From: Rhodovulum sp. MB263
Lineage (GTDB): Bacteria; Pseudomonadota; Alphaproteobacteria; Rhodobacterales; Rhodobacteraceae
DNA: 64,000 nt
Assembly (NCBI RefSeq): GCF_002073975.1
Contig: NZ_CP020384.1
Coordinates: forward strand, 2,728,001 to 2,792,000
Direction of reading: 5' to 3'
The translations under genes and the position numbers were made by a program. The stretch's first letter is position 1, and every line of letters starts with the position of its first letter. Below are positions 7,128 through 21,525 of this stretch, piece after piece. Below the pieces are notes generated by a model. It did no database searches. It had not been told where the DNA came from and was given only the letters and a program-made list of their open reading frames with translations.

Positions 7128-8906
7128 TCAGTTCGCGGTCAGTGTTACGCCGAAGCCCGGCGCCTGTTCAATCTCGGGCCGGAGCCCCAGAAGCGGCGCG
7201 GCGCGCCGGATGACTTCGGCGGCGACCGGCACCGCGGTCCAGCCCGCGGTGCGGCGCGGTTTGGGACCGGTGGTGTCCTGCGGCTCGTCGAGGGTGACGA
7301 TCAGCACATATTGCGGCGCCTCGGCCGGGAACATGCTGGCAAAGGTCGCGATCACCTTCTTGTCGTAATAGCCGCCGGTGGGCTTGGGCTTGTCGGCAGT
7401 ACCGGTCTTGCCCCCCACCCGATAGCCCGGCACCTCGCCGAAGGAGGCCGTGCCATGCACCACCACCTCGCGCAGCATCTTGCGGATCTGGCGCGAGGTT
7501 TCCTCGGAAATCACCCGCTCGCCCGGCTTGTCGCCGCCCGCCAGAAGCGTCGGCCGGACCAGAAGACCGCCATTTGCGATGGTCGAATAGGCCGCCGCCA
7601 GATTGAGCGGGCTGGTCGACACCCCGTGCCCGTAGGAAATCGTCATCGTCGACAGCTCGCTCCAGTTCGCGGGCAAGAGCGGCCTGGTCCCGGCCGCCTC
7701 GACCAGTTCGACCGGCGAGGGGTCCAGCAGCCCGAGACGGGTGAGGAACGCCCGCTGACGCTCGCCGCCGATCCGCTGTGCGATCCGGGCGGTGCCGATA
7801 TTCGAGCTTTTCACCAGCACCGTGGTCACCGACAGGCTCGAACCGTAATTGTGGAAGTCGTTGATCCGGAACCGCCCCCAGACCAGCGGCCCCTTGGTGT
7901 CGATCATGGTATTCGGGTTGACGATGCCCTCGTCCAGCGCCTGCGACACGGTAAGAGGCTTGAAGGTCGAGCCAAGCTCGTAGACCCCCTGCACCGCGCG
8001 GTTGAAAAGCGGGCTGTCGGAGGGATCGCCCTTGACCAGCTGGCGCGGACGCTCGTTCGGATCGAAATCGGGCAGCGAGACCATCGACAGGATCTCGCCG
8101 CTATGCACATCCATCAGGATCGCGGCCGCGCCCTTGGCGCTCATCAGCTTCATGCCGCCCGCCAGAACCCGCTCGACCGCGGCCTGCACCGTCAGGTCGA
8201 TCGACAGCCGGAGCGGCTGGCCGCCATTGGCCGGATCGCGCAGATATTCGTCGAAATAGCGCTCGACCCCGGCCACGCCGATCACCTCGGCCGACTGCAC
8301 GCCCTCGCGGCCGAAGCCGGCGCCTCCGAGGATATGCGCAGCCAGCGCCCCGTTGGGATAGAGCCGCATCTCGCGCGGGCCGAAGGACAGGCCCGGATCG
8401 CCGATGTCATGCACGAGCTGCATCTGCTCGGGGCTGAGCTTCTTCTTGATCCAGACGAATTTGCGGTTGCCGGTGAAATCCTTCACCATCCGCGCCTCGT
8501 CGAGATCGGGGAAGATCGCGGCCAGTTCGCGCGCCACCGCCTTCGGATCGATCATCAGCGGCGGCTGGGCATAAAGCGAATGGGTGGCGAGATTGGTGGC
8601 AAGGATATTGCCGTTGCGATCGACGATATCGGCGCGCTGGGCCACGATCGAGGCGCCCGGGGCGGTGGCGCGCGGCTCGGAGGGAACCGATCCCGCCAGA
8701 ATCCCCATCCGCACGCCGACCACCGCGAAGGCCGCGCAGAACACCACCCCCAGCACCAGCAGGCGCCCCTCGGCCCGGACCCGGGCCTGGTCGCGCATCT
8801 TCTCGTGGCGCAGGCGCTTGTTCTCGCGCTCGATGGCATCGGGATTCTCGCCCCTGGCGCGGGCTTCCAGAATGCGCGCCAGCGGGCGCAGCGGTGTCCG
8901 GATCAT
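7128..8906 (-). CDS. ftsI: Division-specific peptidoglycan transpeptidase FtsI (PBP3)
   Basis: This class B penicillin-binding protein cross-links septal peptidoglycan and works with FtsW, FtsQ, FtsL and FtsB at the divisome. The 592-residue protein has a basic cytoplasmic tail, one membrane anchor (about residues 48-70), a PBP dimerisation domain, and a transpeptidase domain with all three active-site motifs: STFK (313-316, catalytic Ser313), SSN (367-369) and KTG (500-502). The frame is open about 99 codons further upstream through ftsL, but the ATG at 8906 overlaps the ftsL stop as ATGA and gives a normal N-terminus. Confidence 0.95.
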   Translation of the reverse strand: MIRTPLRPLARILEARARGENPDAIERENKRLRHEKMRDQARVRAEGRLLVLGVVFCAAFAVVGVRMGILAGSVPSEPRATAPGASIVAQRADIVDRNGNILATNLATHSLYAQPPLMIDPKAVARELAAIFPDLDEARMVKDFTGNRKFVWIKKKLSPEQMQLVHDIGDPGLSFGPREMRLYPNGALAAHILGGAGFGREGVQSAEVIGVAGVERYFDEYLRDPANGGQPLRLSIDLTVQAAVERVLAGGMKLMSAKGAAAILMDVHSGEILSMVSLPDFDPNERPRQLVKGDPSDSPLFNRAVQGVYELGSTFKPLTVSQALDEGIVNPNTMIDTKGPLVWGRFRINDFHNYGSSLSVTTVLVKSSNIGTARIAQRIGGERQRAFLTRLGLLDPSPVELVEAAGTRPLLPANWSELSTMTISYGHGVSTSPLNLAAAYSTIANGGLLVRPTLLAGGDKPGERVISEETSRQIRKMLREVVVHGTASFGEVPGYRVGGKTGTADKPKPTGGYYDKKVIATFASMFPAEAPQYVLIVTLDEPQDTTGPKPRRTAGWTAVPVAAEVIRRAAPLLGLRPEIEQAPGFGVTLTAN

Positions 8907-9364
8907 CGCCCCTCCTCCGCATCCCCGGCATCGCCGGCATCGAGCGCCTCGGGCACGGCCGAGGCCGCGGCGGCCTCCTCGACGGGCAGGGTGGGTGCGG
9001 CGGTCTGGGCCGGGCGGTCGGCCTCGGCCATGATCTCCTGGAACAGCTCGTCGGGCAGCACGATATCGGGCAAAACCATCTCGGGATAGGAGACCTGATC
9101 GATCTGGCCGAACTGCTCGGGCGCGAGCGGCCCGAGCCCGAGCCGGTCGTAATTCAGCGCCGCCAGCTCGCGCAGCCGCTCGGGCCGGTTCAGATAGGCC
9201 CATTCGGCATTCTGCATGGCCAGTTGCTCGCGCAGCGACCCGATGGCACGGTTCAGACGCTCGACATTGTCGAGCGCCGCCTGGGTCCGGTAATTCTCGC
9301 GATAGGCCCAGAAGGCCAGCGCCATAACCGCCATCGCCGTCAGAACATAGACGAGGCTGCGCAT
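8903..9364 (-). CDS. ftsL: Cell division protein FtsL
   Basis: FtsL is a bitopic divisome protein that links early components to FtsI/FtsW. The 153-residue product has a single N-terminal transmembrane helix (about residues 4-20), a periplasmic segment with coiled-coil character (RTQAALDNVERLNRAIGSLR), and the LNRPERLRELA motif common in alphaproteobacterial FtsL. The acidic, alanine-rich C-terminal extension of about 50 residues is poorly conserved in the family. The gene abuts rsmH and overlaps ftsI by 4 bases, which fits the fixed dcw order. Confidence 0.88.
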   Translation of the reverse strand: MRSLVYVLTAMAVMALAFWAYRENYRTQAALDNVERLNRAIGSLREQLAMQNAEWAYLNRPERLRELAALNYDRLGLGPLAPEQFGQIDQVSYPEMVLPDIVLPDELFQEIMAEADRPAQTAAPTLPVEEAAAASAVPEALDAGDAGDAEEGR

Positions 9365-10888: not shown

Positions 10889-10951
10889 CTGCCCGACGCT
10901 CCTTTACCCTCACCGTCTTCGCCAACGACCGGTTCTGAGACCGCTCCGACG

Positions 10952-10991
10952 AAAACGGCGGACTGAGCTGCTGCCACCGCCCAATCCGCCG
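10952..10991 (-). terminator. intrinsic terminator inside the dcw leader
   Basis: Read on the minus strand, CGGCGGA pairs with TCCGCCG (7 bp) across a 22-base loop and is followed by TTTT. It would end the UpsM-like RNA about 65 bases before mraZ, making this an attenuator. Confidence 0.6.
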
Positions 10992-11162
10992 CCCTCGTCC
11001 CGTTCCGGGTTGCCCGGCTGCGCGCACCACCTGGGGGATGTTTGCTCGCTCGCGCGCCGGATCTCGTATGGGGGCTGTGGCGGGTGCCTGTATGAAACCG
11101 TTTTGGTTTTTCCGGGGTCTCTTTATGCGCCCCTTAATCCGTATCGTCCGCCATCGCCCTTG
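10952..11162 (-). ncRNA. UpsM-like sRNA / extended dcw 5' leader
   Basis: About 270 bases separate the mraZ start from a good promoter, and an internal hairpin followed by a short T-run lies about 210 bases from the predicted transcription start. In R. sphaeroides the dcw operon has a 268-nt leader in which premature termination yields the 206-nt sRNA UpsM; position, strand and both lengths match here. The RNA identity is therefore inferred from architecture, not from sequence comparison. Read-through would make the full dcw mRNA. No protein gene is credible between 10,889 and 11,530. Confidence 0.7.
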
Positions 11163-11169
11163 TAGGACC

Positions 11170-11198
11170 CTTATGACATGGGAATTCATGGAGATCAA
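11170..11198 (-). promoter_or_regulatory. predicted dcw (mraZ/UpsM) promoter
   Basis: On the minus strand a TTGATC -35 box and a CATAAG -10 box are separated by exactly 17 bases. The start site would fall near 11,161, giving a leader of about 270 bases before mraZ, close to the 268 bases reported in R. sphaeroides. Confidence 0.55.
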
Positions 11199-11490
11199 CT
11201 GAATTTGGCGGGAATGTGTTGAAGAGATCACGCCGTCGAGGCGGGAATCCACCCGGAAATCGACACCGGATTGGGATGCAGGCACCTCAATTTGTGCTGA
11301 AATTTTATAAAAACCCCACATATCGTAGACACCAGACAGAATGCACCCCTTGAGTGCATCTGATAAAAATTTTCTCGGAAAGGATGATCTCGCCGAATGC
11401 GCGTGAACAGGTGCCGTCGGAACCGGCAAGAAAAAGGCCCCGAATCACCGATCCGGAGCCTCCGACCCAAATTTGACCATGAATTCCCGT
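11178..11490. repeat. AT-rich interval bounded by imperfect inverted repeats
   Basis: GGGAATTCATGG at 11180-11191 reappears inverted at 11477-11488, and similarity continues inward with small gaps (TCAA, then AATTTGG). Between them lies a distinctly AT-rich stretch (about 11,270-11,420) that includes a small hairpin (ATGCAC/GTGCAT near 11,341-11,360). There is no credible coding sequence. It may be a decayed miniature element or duplicated promoter DNA; the outer part of one arm carries the dcw promoter. Confidence 0.35.
11431..11460 (-). terminator. terminator of apbC
   Basis: On the minus strand GGCTCCG pairs with CGGGGCC (7 bp, one wobble) and is followed by TTTTTC, about 75-100 bases after the apbC stop codon. 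Confidence 0.6.
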
Positions 11491-11533: not shown

Positions 11534-12640
11534 TCAGGCCATGCCGCCGCCGATCAGCCGGACAGCGATCTGCGCATAGGCCTCGGCGATGGCCCCCTCG
11601 CCCAGCGCCACCGGACGCCCGGCATCTCCCGCCTCGCGTACCTCGAGCGCCAGGGGCAGCGCGCCGAGGAAGGGCACCCCCAGCTTCTGCGCCTCGGCCT
11701 CGACCCCGCCATGGCCGAAGATATGCGCCTCATGCCCGCAATTGGGGCAGATATAGGTGGACATGTTCTCGATCAGCCCGAGTACCGGAGTCTGGAGCTT
11801 GGCGAACATGTCGAGCGCCTTGCGCGCATCCAGCAGTGCCACATCCTGAGGTGTCGAGACCACCAGGGCCCCGGTCAGTTTCGTCCGCTGGCACAGCGTC
11901 AGCTGGATGTCGCCCGTGCCCGGCGGCAGATCGACCACCAGCACGTCGAGCCGCCCCCAGTTGACCTGGCCCAACAATTGCTGAAGCGCGCCCATCAGCA
12001 TCGGACCGCGCCAGACCACCGCCTCGTCTTCCTTCAGCAGCAGGCCGATCGACATCATCGTCACGCCATGCGCCGAGACCGGCTCGATGATCTTGCCGTC
12101 GGGCGAGGCGGGGCGACGGGTCGCGCCCATCATCCTGGGCAGAGACGGACCGTAGATATCGGCATCGAGCAGCCCGACCCGGCGCCCCTGACGGGCCAGC
12201 GCCACCGCGAGATTGCTGGCCACCGTCGACTTGCCGACGCCGCCCTTGCCCGAGGCCACAGCCAGGATGCGGTCGACCCCCGACGGATTGCGTGGCCCGT
12301 CATCGGGGGTGGGGTGGCGGCCGATCCGGGGGCCCGGCTGCGCCCCCGCCTGCGGCCCCGGTTGCGGCGCCGATTTCTGCGCCGCCCCCGCCCCGCCATG
12401 CGCCGTCAGTACGATCGAGGCCCGCGCAACGCCCGCAATCGCCTCGACCGCGGCCTGGGCAGCCGCCCGCACCGGCTCCATCGCCCGGGCCGCCTCGGCG
12501 GTTTCGGCCTCGATCACGAAGCGCACCGTATCACCCTCGACAGAGAGCGCGCGGACCAGATCGCGCGAGACCAGATCGCCGCCGCCCGGCACTGCGATTC
12601 GGGACAGTTCGGCTAAAATCACATCATTGGAAAGAGGCAT
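11534..12640 (-). CDS. apbC: Iron-sulfur cluster carrier protein ApbC/Mrp
   Basis: This P-loop ATPase of the Mrp/NBP35 family binds and transfers Fe-S clusters to client proteins in the cytoplasm. The 368-residue protein has an N-terminal MIP18-like domain (about residues 1-80), a Pro/Gly/Gln-rich linker (85-118), a deviant Walker A GKGGVGKS (131-138), the VVDLPPGTGD switch (235-244), and the cluster-ligating CPNC pair (C298, C301). Length is normal for alphaproteobacterial forms. It is a single-gene unit with its own terminator, running towards the dcw leader. Confidence 0.92.
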   Translation of the reverse strand: MPLSNDVILAELSRIAVPGGGDLVSRDLVRALSVEGDTVRFVIEAETAEAARAMEPVRAAAQAAVEAIAGVARASIVLTAHGGAGAAQKSAPQPGPQAGAQPGPRIGRHPTPDDGPRNPSGVDRILAVASGKGGVGKSTVASNLAVALARQGRRVGLLDADIYGPSLPRMMGATRRPASPDGKIIEPVSAHGVTMMSIGLLLKEDEAVVWRGPMLMGALQQLLGQVNWGRLDVLVVDLPPGTGDIQLTLCQRTKLTGALVVSTPQDVALLDARKALDMFAKLQTPVLGLIENMSTYICPNCGHEAHIFGHGGVEAEAQKLGVPFLGALPLALEVREAGDAGRPVALGEGAIAEAYAQIAVRLIGGGMA

Positions 12641-12810
12641 CAGAGACTCCGTTTCGCGCGAGACCTGTCCTCTTACTTGGCCGTATGCCCCAAAAGGGCA
12701 AGAGTCGTTTCTTCCCCGCCCATTCCCGCGCCATCCGGGCAGAACCCGCCCAAAACTATGTCAGAATGACTTATGCAGTTTCCGCATGGCAGCAATTCGG
12801 CCGCGAGCCA

Positions 12811-12840
12811 TTGTGCAACTGCAGCAAAAGGGTATTTATA
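12811..12840 (+). promoter_or_regulatory. candidate promoter of the hairpin-array RNA
   Basis: TTGTGC at 12811-12816 and TTTATA at 12835-12840 are separated by 18 bases. This is the best -35/-10 pair upstream of the four hairpins and would start transcription about 45-55 bases before hairpin 1. Stress sigma factors (RpoHI/RpoHII) drive the comparable RNAs in R. sphaeroides; I cannot assign the sigma factor from sequence alone. Confidence 0.35.
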
Positions 12841-12899
12841 GGACCAACGGCGCGGACGGGACGCAACGGCATCGACCGGCAACCCACCGCCCAGAGAAA

Positions 12900-13085
12900 G
12901 GAAACCCCTCCTCCTCCCTGGGTTTCCTCATCTCGCGGCGGCACCTACCTCCTCCCAGGTGCCGCCGCACTTTTCATACGGGGCTTCGGCCCCACCGGAT
13001 ACGGCAGTATGTCTCCTCCTCCCTGACACTGCCGTTGTGCAGAACGGCGGCGCCCCCTCCTCCCTGGCGTCGCCGTTTCTCTTTT
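12900..13085 (+). ncRNA. array of four CCTCC-loop hairpins (cuckoo / CcsR-type sRNAs)
   Basis: Four stem-loops follow one another, each presenting an anti-Shine-Dalgarno loop. Hairpin 1: GGAAACCC (12900-12907) with GGGTTTCC (12920-12927), loop CTCCTCCTCCCT. Hairpin 2: a perfect 12-bp stem, 12935-12968, loop ACCTCCTCCC. Hairpin 3: CGGCAGT/ACTGCCG plus GTC/GAC, 13002-13034, loop TCCTCCTCCCT. Hairpin 4: 12 pairs with one wobble, 13043-13077, loop CCCTCCTCCCT, followed by a T-rich tract that probably terminates transcription. A GGGGC-TTCG-GCCCC hairpin lies between 2 and 3. In R. sphaeroides such RNAs (CcsR1-4) are stress-induced and made downstream of a DUF1127 gene; no DUF1127 reading frame is present here. 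The 260 bases before the array hold no gene I can support. Confidence 0.8.
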
Positions 13086-13194
13086 CCCGAACAGCCCCGA
13101 AGACAGATCCGCAGGCAGACGCCAGCCGGGCGGCGCAATGCCACGACCGACGCCGAGCGCCTGTCGTCAGATTCCGGAAGGGGCTTTATCGGGG

Positions 13195-13221: not shown

Positions 13222-15681
13222 CTAGAAGGGAACATCGCCGGCACTGGCGGCCGCCACCACGAACCGGGCCACGACCTTCTTGGCCCCGGCCTTGTCGAAG
13301 GCGATGTCGAGCTTGTCGCCCTCGATCCCGGTCACCGTGCCATAGCCGAATTTCTGGTGGAACACCCGCGCACCGAGCTCGAAGGCCGGCAGCGCCTCGG
13401 CATCGATCGTGATGCCACGGGCGCCGTGCGACGGCGTGGAGCCTGACCGACCGGCGGTGCGGCTTTGCAGCCGCTGCCAGCCCGGCGAATTATAGACATC
13501 GGCGCGCGAGGCCCGCGCCTCGATATCCGAGACCGCCACCTGCGGCGCCGCCGCGCCATAGCCCCCGCCATACAGTCCGGGAGGCGTCAGCACCTCGACA
13601 TGGGCAGCGGGAAGCTCGTCGATGAAGCGCGAGGGCAGTTGCGACTGCCATTTCCCGTAGACCCGGCGATTGGCGGCGAAGGACACGGTGCAAAGCTCTT
13701 CGGCCCGGGTCAGCCCGACATAGCCAAGCCGCCGTTCCTCCTCGAGCCCCTTCAGCCCGGTCTCGTCCATTGCGCGCTGACTGGGGAAAAGCCCGTCCTC
13801 CCAGCCCGGCAGGAACACCACCGGAAATTCCAGCCCCTTGGCGGCATGCAGCGTCATCACCGAGATCTTGGCCCCGGTCGCCTCGCTGTCATTGTCCATG
13901 ATCAGCGCGACATGTTCGAGAAAGCCCTGAAGATTGTCGAATTCCTCCAGCGCCTTGACCAGTTCCTTGAGGTTCTCCAGCCGCCCCGGCGCCTCGGGCG
14001 TCTTGTCGGCCTGCCACATCGCCGTGTAGCCCGCCTCATCCAGAATGCGCTCGGCCAGCCCGACATGGCTCAGAGCCCCCTGCCCCGCCTCCAGCGGCAC
14101 GGCCTCGTCGTCGATCAGCATGGCGTCGTCGCCCGCCACCACCGTCGGCGCCGTGTCCAGCACCTCGCCATGCCAGCGCCAGATCGCCTCGATCAGCCTG
14201 CGCAGCTCGGCCCCGCCCTTGCCGCCTAGCCCGCCGCTTTCCAGCAGCATCCGGGCACCCTCGACCAGCGGCACGCCTTCGGCCCGGGCCATGGCCTGGA
14301 TCTTCTGCCGGGCCTTGTCGCCGAGGCCGCGCTTGGGGGTGTTCACGATCCGCTCGAAGGCCAGATCGTCGGCGGGGCTGACGGCGAGGCGGAAATAGGC
14401 CATCGCATCGCGGATCTCCATCCGCTCGTAGAAACGCGGCCCGCCGATCACCCGGTACGGCAGACCGATGGTCAGGAAACGATCCTCGAAGGCACGCATC
14501 TGGTGGCTGGCGCGCACGAGAATCGCCATGTCATCCAGCGAGAAGGGCCGCATCCCGCGGCTGCCGCCCTGCAGCGTCTCAGCCTCCTCGCCGATCCAGC
14601 GGGCCTCTTCCTCGCCATCCCAGTGACCGATCAGCCGGACCTTCTCGCCCGCCTCGGCCTCGGTCCAGAGCGTCTTGCCAAGCCGCCCCTTGTTGGCCGC
14701 GATCAGCCCCGAGGCGGCGGCGAGGATATGCGGGGTCGAGCGGTAATTCTGTTCCAGCCGGATCACCGCGGCGCCGGGAAAATCCTTCTCGAAGCGCAGG
14801 ATGTTGCCGACCTCGGCGCCGCGCCAGCCATAGATCGACTGATCGTCGTCGCCGACGCAGCAGATGTTCCTGTGCCCGCCCGCCAGAAGCCGCAGCCACA
14901 GATACTGCGCCACGTTGGTGTCCTGGTATTCGTCGACCATGATATAGCGGAACCAGCGCCGGTACTGCTCCAGAAGGTCGGGATGGGCCTGGAATATGGT
15001 CACCACATGCAGCAGCAGATCGCCGAAATCGGCCGCGTTCAGGGTCTTCAGACGGTCCTGATAGGCGGCATAGAGCCTGACGCCCCGGCCATCGAAGCCC
15101 GAGCTTTCCGAGGCCGGCACGGTCTCGGGGGTCCAGGCGCGGTTCTTCCAGTGGTCGATCAGCCCGGCCAGCTGCCGCGCGGGCCAGCGTTTCTCGTCGA
15201 TATTCGCGGCCGCGATCACCTGTTTCAGCAGCCGGATCTGGTCGTCGGTATCGAGGATGGTGAAATTCGACTTGAGCCCCACCAGCTCGGCATGGCGGCG
15301 CAGAAGCCGGACGCAGATCGCATGGAAGGTGCCGAGCCAGGGCATGCCCTCGACGGTCTCGCCCATCAGCCGCCCGACCCGCTCCTTCATCTCGCGCGCG
15401 GCCTTGTTGGTGAAGGTCACCGCCAGGATCTCGTTCGGCCGGGCCGCGCCGGTGCAGAGCAGATGCGCGATCCGCGCGGTCAGCGCCCGGGTCTTGCCGG
15501 TGCCCGCGCCCGCCAGCATCAGGACCGGGCCGTCCAGAGTCTCGACCGCCTGGCGCTGCGCCGGGTTCAGCCCGTCGAGATAGGGCGCCGCGCGCGCGGC
15601 CATGCCGCGAACGGAGGCACGAACGGAAAGGGGCGCCTCAGCGGCGGTTTCGAAAGCGTCGGAGTCGTCGATCGGGCACAT
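13222..15681 (-). CDS. uvrD: ATP-dependent DNA helicase UvrD/PcrA
   Basis: This superfamily 1A 3'-5' helicase acts in nucleotide excision and mismatch repair and in clearing RecA or stalled polymerase. The 819-residue product has the Q-motif region (LNPAQRQAVE), Walker A AGAGTGKT (57-64), the VDEYQDTN Walker B/motif II, DDDQSIYGWRGA (motif III), the QNYRS motif IV, LHAAKGLEFPVVF (motif V), and a C-terminal Tudor-like region (GARVFHQKFGYGTV). An in-frame extension of about 96 codons exists upstream, but the ATG at 15681 gives a family-like N-terminus. It has its own terminator and divergent neighbours. Confidence 0.93.
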   Translation of the reverse strand: MCPIDDSDAFETAAEAPLSVRASVRGMAARAAPYLDGLNPAQRQAVETLDGPVLMLAGAGTGKTRALTARIAHLLCTGAARPNEILAVTFTNKAAREMKERVGRLMGETVEGMPWLGTFHAICVRLLRRHAELVGLKSNFTILDTDDQIRLLKQVIAAANIDEKRWPARQLAGLIDHWKNRAWTPETVPASESSGFDGRGVRLYAAYQDRLKTLNAADFGDLLLHVVTIFQAHPDLLEQYRRWFRYIMVDEYQDTNVAQYLWLRLLAGGHRNICCVGDDDQSIYGWRGAEVGNILRFEKDFPGAAVIRLEQNYRSTPHILAAASGLIAANKGRLGKTLWTEAEAGEKVRLIGHWDGEEEARWIGEEAETLQGGSRGMRPFSLDDMAILVRASHQMRAFEDRFLTIGLPYRVIGGPRFYERMEIRDAMAYFRLAVSPADDLAFERIVNTPKRGLGDKARQKIQAMARAEGVPLVEGARMLLESGGLGGKGGAELRRLIEAIWRWHGEVLDTAPTVVAGDDAMLIDDEAVPLEAGQGALSHVGLAERILDEAGYTAMWQADKTPEAPGRLENLKELVKALEEFDNLQGFLEHVALIMDNDSEATGAKISVMTLHAAKGLEFPVVFLPGWEDGLFPSQRAMDETGLKGLEEERRLGYVGLTRAEELCTVSFAANRRVYGKWQSQLPSRFIDELPAAHVEVLTPPGLYGGGYGAAAPQVAVSDIEARASRADVYNSPGWQRLQSRTAGRSGSTPSHGARGITIDAEALPAFELGARVFHQKFGYGTVTGIEGDKLDIAFDKAGAKKVVARFVVAAASAGDVPF

Positions 15682-15766
15682 GGCGACCAATCTAGCGCGG
15701 CCCGGCGATGAGTTAAAGAAGTGTTCCCATTCCGTTCCTGTTTTCGGGCATTTTTTGCCGCCGTCG

Positions 15767-15795
15767 TTGCAATTTCGCGCATAAGGCGAATAGTC
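15767..15795 (+). promoter_or_regulatory. candidate promoter of the lipoprotein gene
   Basis: TTGCAA at 15767-15772 and ATAGTC at 15790-15795 with a 17-base spacer, 25 bases before the ATG at 15821 and its AAAGAGA ribosome site. Confidence 0.4.
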
Positions 15796-15820
15796 GGAAC
15801 AAACAGGGGCGAAAAAGAGA

Positions 15821-16147
15821 ATGAGTCGATACCGCATCCTTCTGTCAGGCTTGGCACTGGCCGCTCTGGCCGCCTGCGGCACGCCGGAACGGCCGGAAAA
15901 CGGCGTTCCGAAGGTCATCACCCCCGAAATGCTGCCGCAGCCGCCCGAGGCTTCGGCCCCCGCCTGCACCGCCGAGATGGCCGCCCGTTTCCATCAGCCC
16001 GAAGCGGGCATCTTCCGGATCGGCAGCGGCCGCACCGCCGCCGGGTTCTGGATCGACATGAAGATGGCCGGACGCGACGGCACCTGGCGCTGTCAGACCA
16101 CCCGCGACGGCCGCGTCCTCACCGTCACCCCGCTGTCAATGTCCTGA
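15821..16147 (+). CDS. small lipoprotein of unknown function
   Basis: The 108-residue product begins with a classic lipoprotein signal (MSRYRILLSGLALAALAAC) whose lipobox LAAC would be lipidated at Cys19. The mature part is short, proline-rich at first (ITPEMLPQPPEASAP), then has a small domain with two cysteines (about positions 49 and 90) that could form a disulfide in the periplasm. I do not recognise a named family. Its end overlaps the end of the convergent gene at 16136-16549 by 12 bases. Confidence 0.72.
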   Translation: MSRYRILLSGLALAALAACGTPERPENGVPKVITPEMLPQPPEASAPACTAEMAARFHQPEAGIFRIGSGRTAAGFWIDMKMAGRDGTWRCQTTRDGRVLTVTPLSMS

Positions 16148-21217: not shown

Positions 21218-21292
21218 GCGGGCGTAGCTCAGGGGTAGAGCATTACCTTGCCAAGGTAAGGGTCGTGAGTTCGAATCTCATCGCCCGCTCCA
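21218..21292 (+). tRNA. tRNA-Gly (GCC)
   Basis: Acceptor GCGGGCG/CGCCCGC, D-arm GCTC/GAGC, anticodon stem TTACC/GGTAA with loop TTGCCAA (anticodon GCC at 21250-21252), T-arm GTGAG-TTCGAAT-CTCAT and an encoded CCA. First of two identical copies. Confidence 0.97.
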
Positions 21293-21450: not shown

Positions 21451-21525
21451 GCGGGCGTAGCTCAGGGGTAGAGCATTACCTTGCCAAGGTAAGGGTCGTG
21501 AGTTCGAATCTCATCGCCCGCTCCA
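21451..21525 (+). tRNA. tRNA-Gly (GCC), second copy
   Basis: Identical in sequence to the copy at 21218-21292; anticodon GCC at 21483-21485, CCA encoded. Confidence 0.97.

Follow-up and report, generated by a model that had tools for sequence, protein, structure and literature searches.

An anti-Shine-Dalgarno hairpin array of Rhodovulum as the likely former 3′ part of a ccaF1-CcsR operon from which the DUF1127 gene was lost

In the genome of Rhodovulum sp. MB263, an array of the CcsR/cuckoo type lies between mrp-like and uvrD-like genes, and it is, with good confidence, the former 3′ part of a ccaF1-CcsR operon whose DUF1127 partner has lost its coding sequence; the scheme of processing and regulation that we attach to this explanation is given below. 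The parts of it that can be read from the sequences are the locus, the structure and its covariation, the conserved promoter module, and the absence here of a gene that is present in relatives. Studies of CcaF1 and the CcsR RNAs have treated them as a single operon whose protein product aids the maturation of the RNAs, and genomes that keep the array without the gene, next to close relatives that bear it, constitute a natural deletion series in which it can be asked whether CcsR-like RNAs need CcaF1 in cis, in trans or at all.

The array is a real structure. Four consecutive plus-strand stem-loops occupy positions 12900-13077 of the window, i.e., the whole stretch of 64,000 nt that was analyzed (Table 1), as the original prediction had recognized together with the T-rich stretch behind the last of them. 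That prediction, however, credited only three of the loops with the motif CCTCCTCCC, which is in fact exact in all four, starting at 12910, 12948, 13015 and 13056. Besides these four copies the window contains one more, and 1.26 in total would be expected from shuffling. The segment 12845-13090 folds with -114.6 kcal/mol (z -6.98), a stability equaled in none of 200 shuffles, and among 1000 dinucleotide shuffles of 12890-13090 there were 996 without a motif-bearing hairpin loop, 4 with one and 0 with two, compared with four such loops in the real sequence. A chance origin of the array is ruled out by the shuffles and by the covariation described below. The 32 other exact copies of the motif in the 4.16-Mb genome are isolated, the nearest pair being more than 2 kb apart, and none of these sites forms a second array; a loose stem test gave up to 10 pairs at a few of them, again without an array. 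Hairpins 2 and 3 are separated by a fifth, motif-free hairpin, and a small hairpin is predicted at the same position in many relatives, though not in all.

Table 1. Positions of the array, its putative promoter elements and the neighboring genes in the window
Feature	Positions	Strand	Remarks
Upstream neighbor, Mrp/ApbC-type iron-sulphur carrier	11534-12640	-	NCBIfam ApbC score below cut-off; synteny
Box A, TGCA-N6-GCAT (TGCAGTTTCCGCAT), LysR-type site	12774-12787	+	Conserved in genus alignment; form of the LsrB site of S. meliloti nfeR1
Putative core promoter	12811-12838	+	TTGTGC 12811-12816, 16-nt spacer, TATTTA 12833-12838; read from sequence
Box B, TGCA-N6-GCAA (TGCAACTGCAGCAA)	12814-12827	+	Overlaps -35 hexamer; starts 40 bp after start of box A
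Non-coding leader	12845-12899	+	Occupies the place of the DUF1127 coding sequence in G004 and G009
CcsR-like unit 1 (hairpins 1 and 2)	12896-12973	+	Full-length match to Rfam RF02791, 52.9 bits, E 2.4e-12; gathering score of 65.3 missed
Hairpin 1	12900-12927	+	Motif 12910-12918; stem nearly invariant in genus
Hairpin 2	12935-12968	+	Motif 12948-12956; both-side changes at 3 pairs
Spacer hairpin, motif-free, GGGG-CUUCGG-CCCC	12980-12993	+	3′ of U-rich stretch
CcsR-like unit 2 (hairpins 3 and 4)	12997-13081	+	Second match to RF02791 (30 bits, E 1.5e-5), likewise short of 65.3
Hairpin 3	13001-13035	+	Motif 13015-13023; both-side changes at 9/11 pairs
Hairpin 4	13043-13077	+	Motif 13056-13064; doubles as stem of probable intrinsic terminator
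T-rich tail TCTCTTTTCCC	13078-13088	+	Directly 3′ of hairpin 4
Downstream neighbor, UvrD/PcrA-type helicase	13222-15969	-	Convergent with array; NCBIfam PcrA score below cut-off; synteny

The locus order shared in the family is mrp, DUF1127 gene, array and uvrD, and mrp and uvrD flank gene-bearing and gene-less arrays alike. The array lies between them in all 16 genomes of the genus (in G008, the uvrD match is beyond the fetched 1.5 kb and present in a longer stretch). A DUF1127 gene adjoins it in only two, G004 and G009, where the order is promoter, gene and array and the stop codon of the gene abuts hairpin 1; in the 14 genomes without the gene, about 50-220 nt of leader separate the same promoter from the array. 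The claim that no DUF1127 frame lies upstream of the array of the window was borne out, for neither a hidden frame of this kind nor a degraded remnant of one was found in its leader, the plus strand of the leader has no ATG, GTG or TTG start codon, and the nearest DUF1127 matches of the genome are elsewhere. Because relatives have the gene at the same locus, the state of the window represents a loss and not an original protein-free state. Outside the genus, a DUF1127 domain was found upstream on the same strand at 59 of the 62 mrp/uvrD-linked family arrays, the 62 being those with at least 450 nt upstream from two samples (29 and 33) that may share genera and were all picked by exact motifs. 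The three at which it was not found are L067, whose DUF1127 domain lies downstream, and L062 (genus G107) and L127 (Yoonia litorea), both of which have the array and the promoter module in place with no upstream DUF1127 gene found.

Arrays with at least three exact motifs at 20-50 nt spacing occur in at least 85 of the 295 family genomes (one genome per genus), which is a lower bound because the array of the window itself, with a second gap too long for the pattern, was missed. Of the 83 fetched arrays located outside the mrp/uvrD locus, 56 show no upstream DUF1127 domain in the 450 nt scanned, a few of these being chance matches in other phyla. Given these arrays and the precedent of NfeR1, an array with its own promoter and without a protein is not the new situation it had been thought to be; protein-free arrays of this kind are already published for Rhizobiales, and what is apparently new is the loss of the cis partner from a conserved operon. 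In the open-licence part of PubMed Central, as far as its articles were covered, we saw no report of cis-gene loss at the mrp/uvrD locus or of a LysR box at ccaF1-CcsR. As a separate observation, a giant array with 26 exact motifs lies behind a DUF1127 gene at L064 (G180:C1:334949-336281), built from a three-hairpin unit repeated head to tail about every 140 bases, which suggests that arrays may grow by tandem duplication. In the genome of the window, 15 kb of the 239-kb replicon match plasmids of R. sulfidophilum at 93% over 99-100%.

The number of losses was considered on a tree constructed from Mrp and UvrD, that from Mrp alone being weak. The genus forms one clade (100/99) with G004 as its first branch (next node 86/90), and G009 falls within a clade of five (89/97), while the gene is absent throughout the clade of four that contains the window (100/100) and a clade of six (99/98). 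If only losses are counted, parsimony calls for three or four of them, and two changes suffice if regain is allowed. A tree constrained to unite the 14 gene-less genomes is worse by 36.4 log units, with a p-AU of 0.05; a single loss in the genus is disfavored by the tree, not firmly rejected, and the partner gene has probably been lost from the conserved operon repeatedly. The equal-cost solution with only two changes could also mean that the genus originally had no gene at the locus and that G004 and G009 gained a DUF1127 gene, the protein-free state being ancestral, as the 56 of 83 off-locus arrays without an upstream DUF1127 domain might also intimate. Such a gain seems highly improbable, however, because the same order including the gene is found at 59 of the 62 linked family arrays, because the first branch of the genus is gene-bearing, and because the gene in G004 and G009 sits between the same promoter and the same array.

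With the array of the window as the structural reference, the alignment comprised 16 genomes of the genus, all of which possess the array, and 96.5% of its cells pair under the window structure. Both sides of the pair have changed at 16 of the 43 stem pairs, a number that 0 of 500 shuffles reached, and partners that were slid gave at most 6 pairs. Such covarying pairs are found at 9/11 pairs of stem 3, 4/12 of stem 4 and 3/12 of stem 2, and stem 1 has none because it hardly varies, with 15 of its 16 columns invariant. In contrast to this fixation in hairpin 1 (12900-12927), stem 3 varies at all 11 pairs and retains the structure in 89.1% of cells. Variation at stems 2 and 4 affects 4/12 and 5/12 pairs, respectively, in this comparison within a genus, whereas the free stems published for cuckoo RNAs are a feature of wider comparisons. 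At hairpin 4, aligned conservation is even higher for the stem (0.94) than for the motif (0.89), partly through a shift in the alignment. The original prediction that the loop alone is selected is too simple, for although the loops matter, the freedom of the stems has limits, above all in stem 1. Whether close relatives lose the loop motif, a question the prediction had raised against itself, depends on the length considered, because the shorter TCCTCCC is present in four copies in 15 of the 16 genomes but the full 9-mer in four copies in only 9, with three copies in 5 and two in 2. The alignment contains 33 G-U/U-G cells versus 4 A-C/C-A cells, an excess indicating that it is the plus-strand RNA that folds.

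The incomplete conservation of the full 9-mer, together with the long leader without a gene in G005, where the RNA is the most changed, might mean that the array is a decaying remnant of the ccaF1-CcsR operon after the loss of the protein. We see only a very slim chance of this, because compensatory changes keep the stems, TCCTCCC is retained fourfold in nearly every genome, and the array persists in 16 of 16 genomes with its promoter boxes conserved. An equally slight chance is given to a role of the hairpins chiefly at the level of the DNA or of the minus strand, where they would terminate transcription in both directions or block decay behind uvrD and the C-rich loops would be a by-product. 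In favor of such a role, uvrD ends on one side of the array and mrp starts on the other, both being minus-strand genes, and such strong GC hairpins would stall minus-strand transcription too. Against it, the G-U pairs favor the plus strand by 33 to 4, a conserved plus-strand promoter stands at the array, the DUF1127 gene, where present, is on the plus strand just upstream, and Rfam sRNA models match the plus strand.

As a CcsR/cuckoo-type RNA read from the plus strand, the array can be compared with known families. A covariance search, which the original prediction had proposed, matched on the plus strand the CcsR1 model twice (RF02791; Table 1) and the alpha-r14 model once (RF02344, 47.1 bits, E 1e-7, with a gathering threshold of 58.8), but these matches come from a permissive Rfam search of a short stretch and all are below the gathering thresholds, at which an Rfam scan gives tRNAs only. 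Weaker permissive matches (6C, Scr3202, ar7 and others) were taken as chance. Because none of 18 other array loci of the genus and family, 13 of them with a cis DUF1127 gene, reaches the CcsR1 cut-off, this cut-off does not separate the array from its gene-bearing relatives; the scores of the 18 fall within the range seen here, and the ar14 cut-off was reached by 2 of them. The CcsR1 matches of 52.9 and 30 bits, together with the four motif loops, support the assignment of the anti-Shine-Dalgarno loops to the CcsR/cuckoo kind, and the most fitting description of the array is a pair of CcsR-like units, each made of two hairpins. Elsewhere in the window, two tandem tRNA genes with equal scores lie 161 bases apart (21218-21289 and 21451-21522).

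CcsR1-4 of Rhodobacter sphaeroides, encoded with ccaF1 (RSP_6037), come from the same bacterial family and likewise consist of paired hairpins with CCUCCUCCC loops in a row, with a terminator after the last, and the gene-then-array arrangement is shared by relatives of the array of the window. The latter differs in that it lacks a ccaF1-type gene in cis, comprises two CcsR-like units where R. sphaeroides has four, and matches the model, although twice and over its full length, with scores below the Rfam cut-off. NfeR1 (alpha-r14) of Sinorhizobium meliloti has anti-Shine-Dalgarno hairpins, its own promoter (putative here) and no DUF1127 partner, and a TGCA-N6-GCAT box precedes its start (putative here) by about 60-70 bp. 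It has, however, three hairpins as opposed to four plus a spacer hairpin, it occupies another genomic position, and the binding of LsrB was measured there, whereas at the array of the window it is the sequence of a putative site that is seen. The cuckoo RNA family has been described as two to four adjacent hairpins with CCUCCUCCC loops and free stems (PMC4504443, PMC10253847), and the array, with four adjacent hairpins bearing such loops, fits the published description of the motif. The CIN1 locus of this family is defined in the same sources by a DUF1127 neighbor, which is missing at the array of the window. According to published descriptions, AbcR1/AbcR2 share C/U-rich anti-Shine-Dalgarno loops and, in Rhizobiales, control by LsrB/VtlR (PMC7143759, PMC7486931), but differ in structure and sequence.

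The promoter predicted near 12,811-12,840 also appears to exist, for a promoter-like region with TTGTGC and TATTTA is found there, and the columns of ATTGTGCA and TAT-T are invariant across 13 aligned promoters; transcription would start at about 12845. Two boxes accompany it, and box B, which deviates in its last base in the window, reads TGCA-N6-GCAT in many relatives. Of 159 arrays, 101 have a TGCA-N6-GCAT sequence in the 600 nt preceding them, compared with 104 of 2308 background windows, and the two-part promoter module precedes 56 of the 62 mrp/uvrD-linked arrays, 9 of the 83 others and 29 of 1282 background windows. S. meliloti NfeR1 (alpha-r14/cuckoo) is reported to possess a sigma-70 promoter and the activator LsrB (PMC10746234, PMC7143759), whose site at nfeR1 is TGCA-N6-GCAT at -72 to -57 (PMC10746234). 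If transcription starts at 12845, box A is at about -71 to -58, a box of the LsrB/VtlR type upstream of the core promoter. The related VtlR of Brucella has been reported to control DUF1127 genes (PMC12595884). Against a regulator of this kind, work on R. sphaeroides assigns the ccaF1-CcsR promoter to RpoHI/RpoHII and not to a LysR protein (PMC10253847), and LsrB is held in one account to be unique to Rhizobiales (PMC11975290).

In each of the 7 family genomes searched, one LysR protein is by far the closest to Agrobacterium VtlR (229-260 bits versus at most 130 for the next). The candidate LsrB/VtlR-like protein of this genome (C1:1568342-1569199) shares 43% identity with Agrobacterium VtlR, and its helix-turn-helix is identical at 45 of 61 positions versus 22 of 57 for the next paralogue; it was chosen by sequence only, its orthology being judged by the score gap, and no NCBIfam model scores above its cut-off. 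A location of LsrB adjoining trxB, as in Rhizobiales, was rejected, because the gene beside trxB does not encode a LysR protein and the homologue is elsewhere. The shared promoter box provides a testable link from the rhizobial LsrB/VtlR-sRNA circuit to Rhodobacterales. A loose form of the module is found upstream of DUF1127 genes of a further type as well, in 8 of 25 cases, this type having the C-terminal sequence LSRLSDRELDDIGL (L215, L217, L220, L225, L328, L329, L331 and L335), and is therefore not specific to CcaF1 or to arrays and marks a wider regulon, hinting that several DUF1127 types might belong to one regulon.

The array of the window is an orphan in cis, which is not necessarily to say protein-free. 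Contrary to the idea of a genome without the partner protein, a CcaF1-type DUF1127 gene encoding 71 amino acids exists 364 kb from the array (about C1:3104922-3105137; L002 1429-1644), and upstream of it are a TGCA-N6-GCAT box and an ATTGTGC hexamer resembling the array promoter. The DUF1127 genes of the genus were typed against a profile built from 30 CcaF1-type proteins of other genera, using a line of 50 bits that was drawn after the scores had been seen (other types at most 44.8, CcaF1-type at least 51.1). Such a gene is found away from the array in 7 of the 14 gene-less genomes (G000, which is this genome, G003, G005, G006, G007, G013 and G015), preceded by the loose promoter module in 5 of the 7. 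The gene-bearing G004 and G009 have no CcaF1-type gene in trans. In the remaining 7 gene-less genomes, every DUF1127 match that the search let through was examined, and none is of the CcaF1 type. A trans gene coexists with a cis gene in at least 3 of 12 genomes from elsewhere in the family (L332, L341 and L353, with 30 of 52 places covered), so it may be an older paralogue rather than a cis gene that moved.

Taken together with published work, these findings allow a mechanism to be proposed. The LsrB/VtlR-like LysR activator probably reads the promoter with its two TGCA-N6-GCAT-type boxes, and a transcript of about 240 nt would begin near 12845 and end at hairpin 4, which would serve as its terminator; induction under stress is a likely path, judging from what has been published on CcsR, NfeR1 and CcaF1. 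RNase E, which together with CcaF1 and PNPase has been reported to process CcsR in R. sphaeroides (PMC10253847, PMC8625941, PMC7866481), might then cut the unpaired U/A-rich linkers to give two RNAs of about 80 nt with two C-rich loops each. The CcsR RNAs are also characterized by stress induction, dependence on RpoHI/RpoHII and binding of Hfq. Pairing of the loops with extended Shine-Dalgarno sequences resembling GGGAGGAGG would, during stress, make a set of mRNAs less stable or less well translated. A CcaF1-type protein, if it is still needed for processing, would come in trans from the separate gene with the related promoter; since the search found none in half (7) of the 14 gene-less relatives, their arrays probably function either independently of it or with the help of a different DUF1127 protein.

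A broader reading, which we put forward only tentatively, is that the ccaF1-CcsR operon has been dismantled several times independently, once or more in this genus and also in Yoonia litorea and one other genus, with the promoter and the array kept. Half of the gene-less genomes of the genus would make the CcaF1-type protein from a gene located elsewhere, whose promoter is copy-like. The array would be an autonomous regulator, and in Rhodobacterales as in Rhizobiales one LysR circuit of LsrB/VtlR descent would govern both cuckoo arrays and DUF1127 genes, whether or not the protein is encoded in cis. An excess of CcaF1 has been reported to hinder CcsR maturation (PMC8307010).

For targets, the genome contains 25 sites with GGAGGAGG located 3-9 nt before ATG versus 2 for the reversed pattern, although Shine-Dalgarno sequences are expected there anyway, and some 8 of the 25 frames encode fewer than 90 amino acids and may not be genes. 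The frames led by GGAGGAGG include those for a universal stress protein, a cytochrome c, a MaoC/mesaconyl-CoA-hydratase-like protein, an acetyl-CoA hydrolase/transferase, and solute-binding and ABC ATPase proteins, as well as ftsI in the window; a TRAP transporter is a further candidate with a GGGAGGAGG leader. On the minus strand of the window, GGAGGAGGGGCGATG at 8904-8918 precedes this ftsI-like frame and has an 8-base match to the array loops; it and the frames listed may serve as leads, not as targets. Also on the minus strand, positions of about 10889-11300 make up the region upstream of what we take to be an mraZ-like gene, named by recognition like its neighbors in the window. In R. sphaeroides, the sRNA UpsM has been described as a product of the mraZ leader (PMC7866481).
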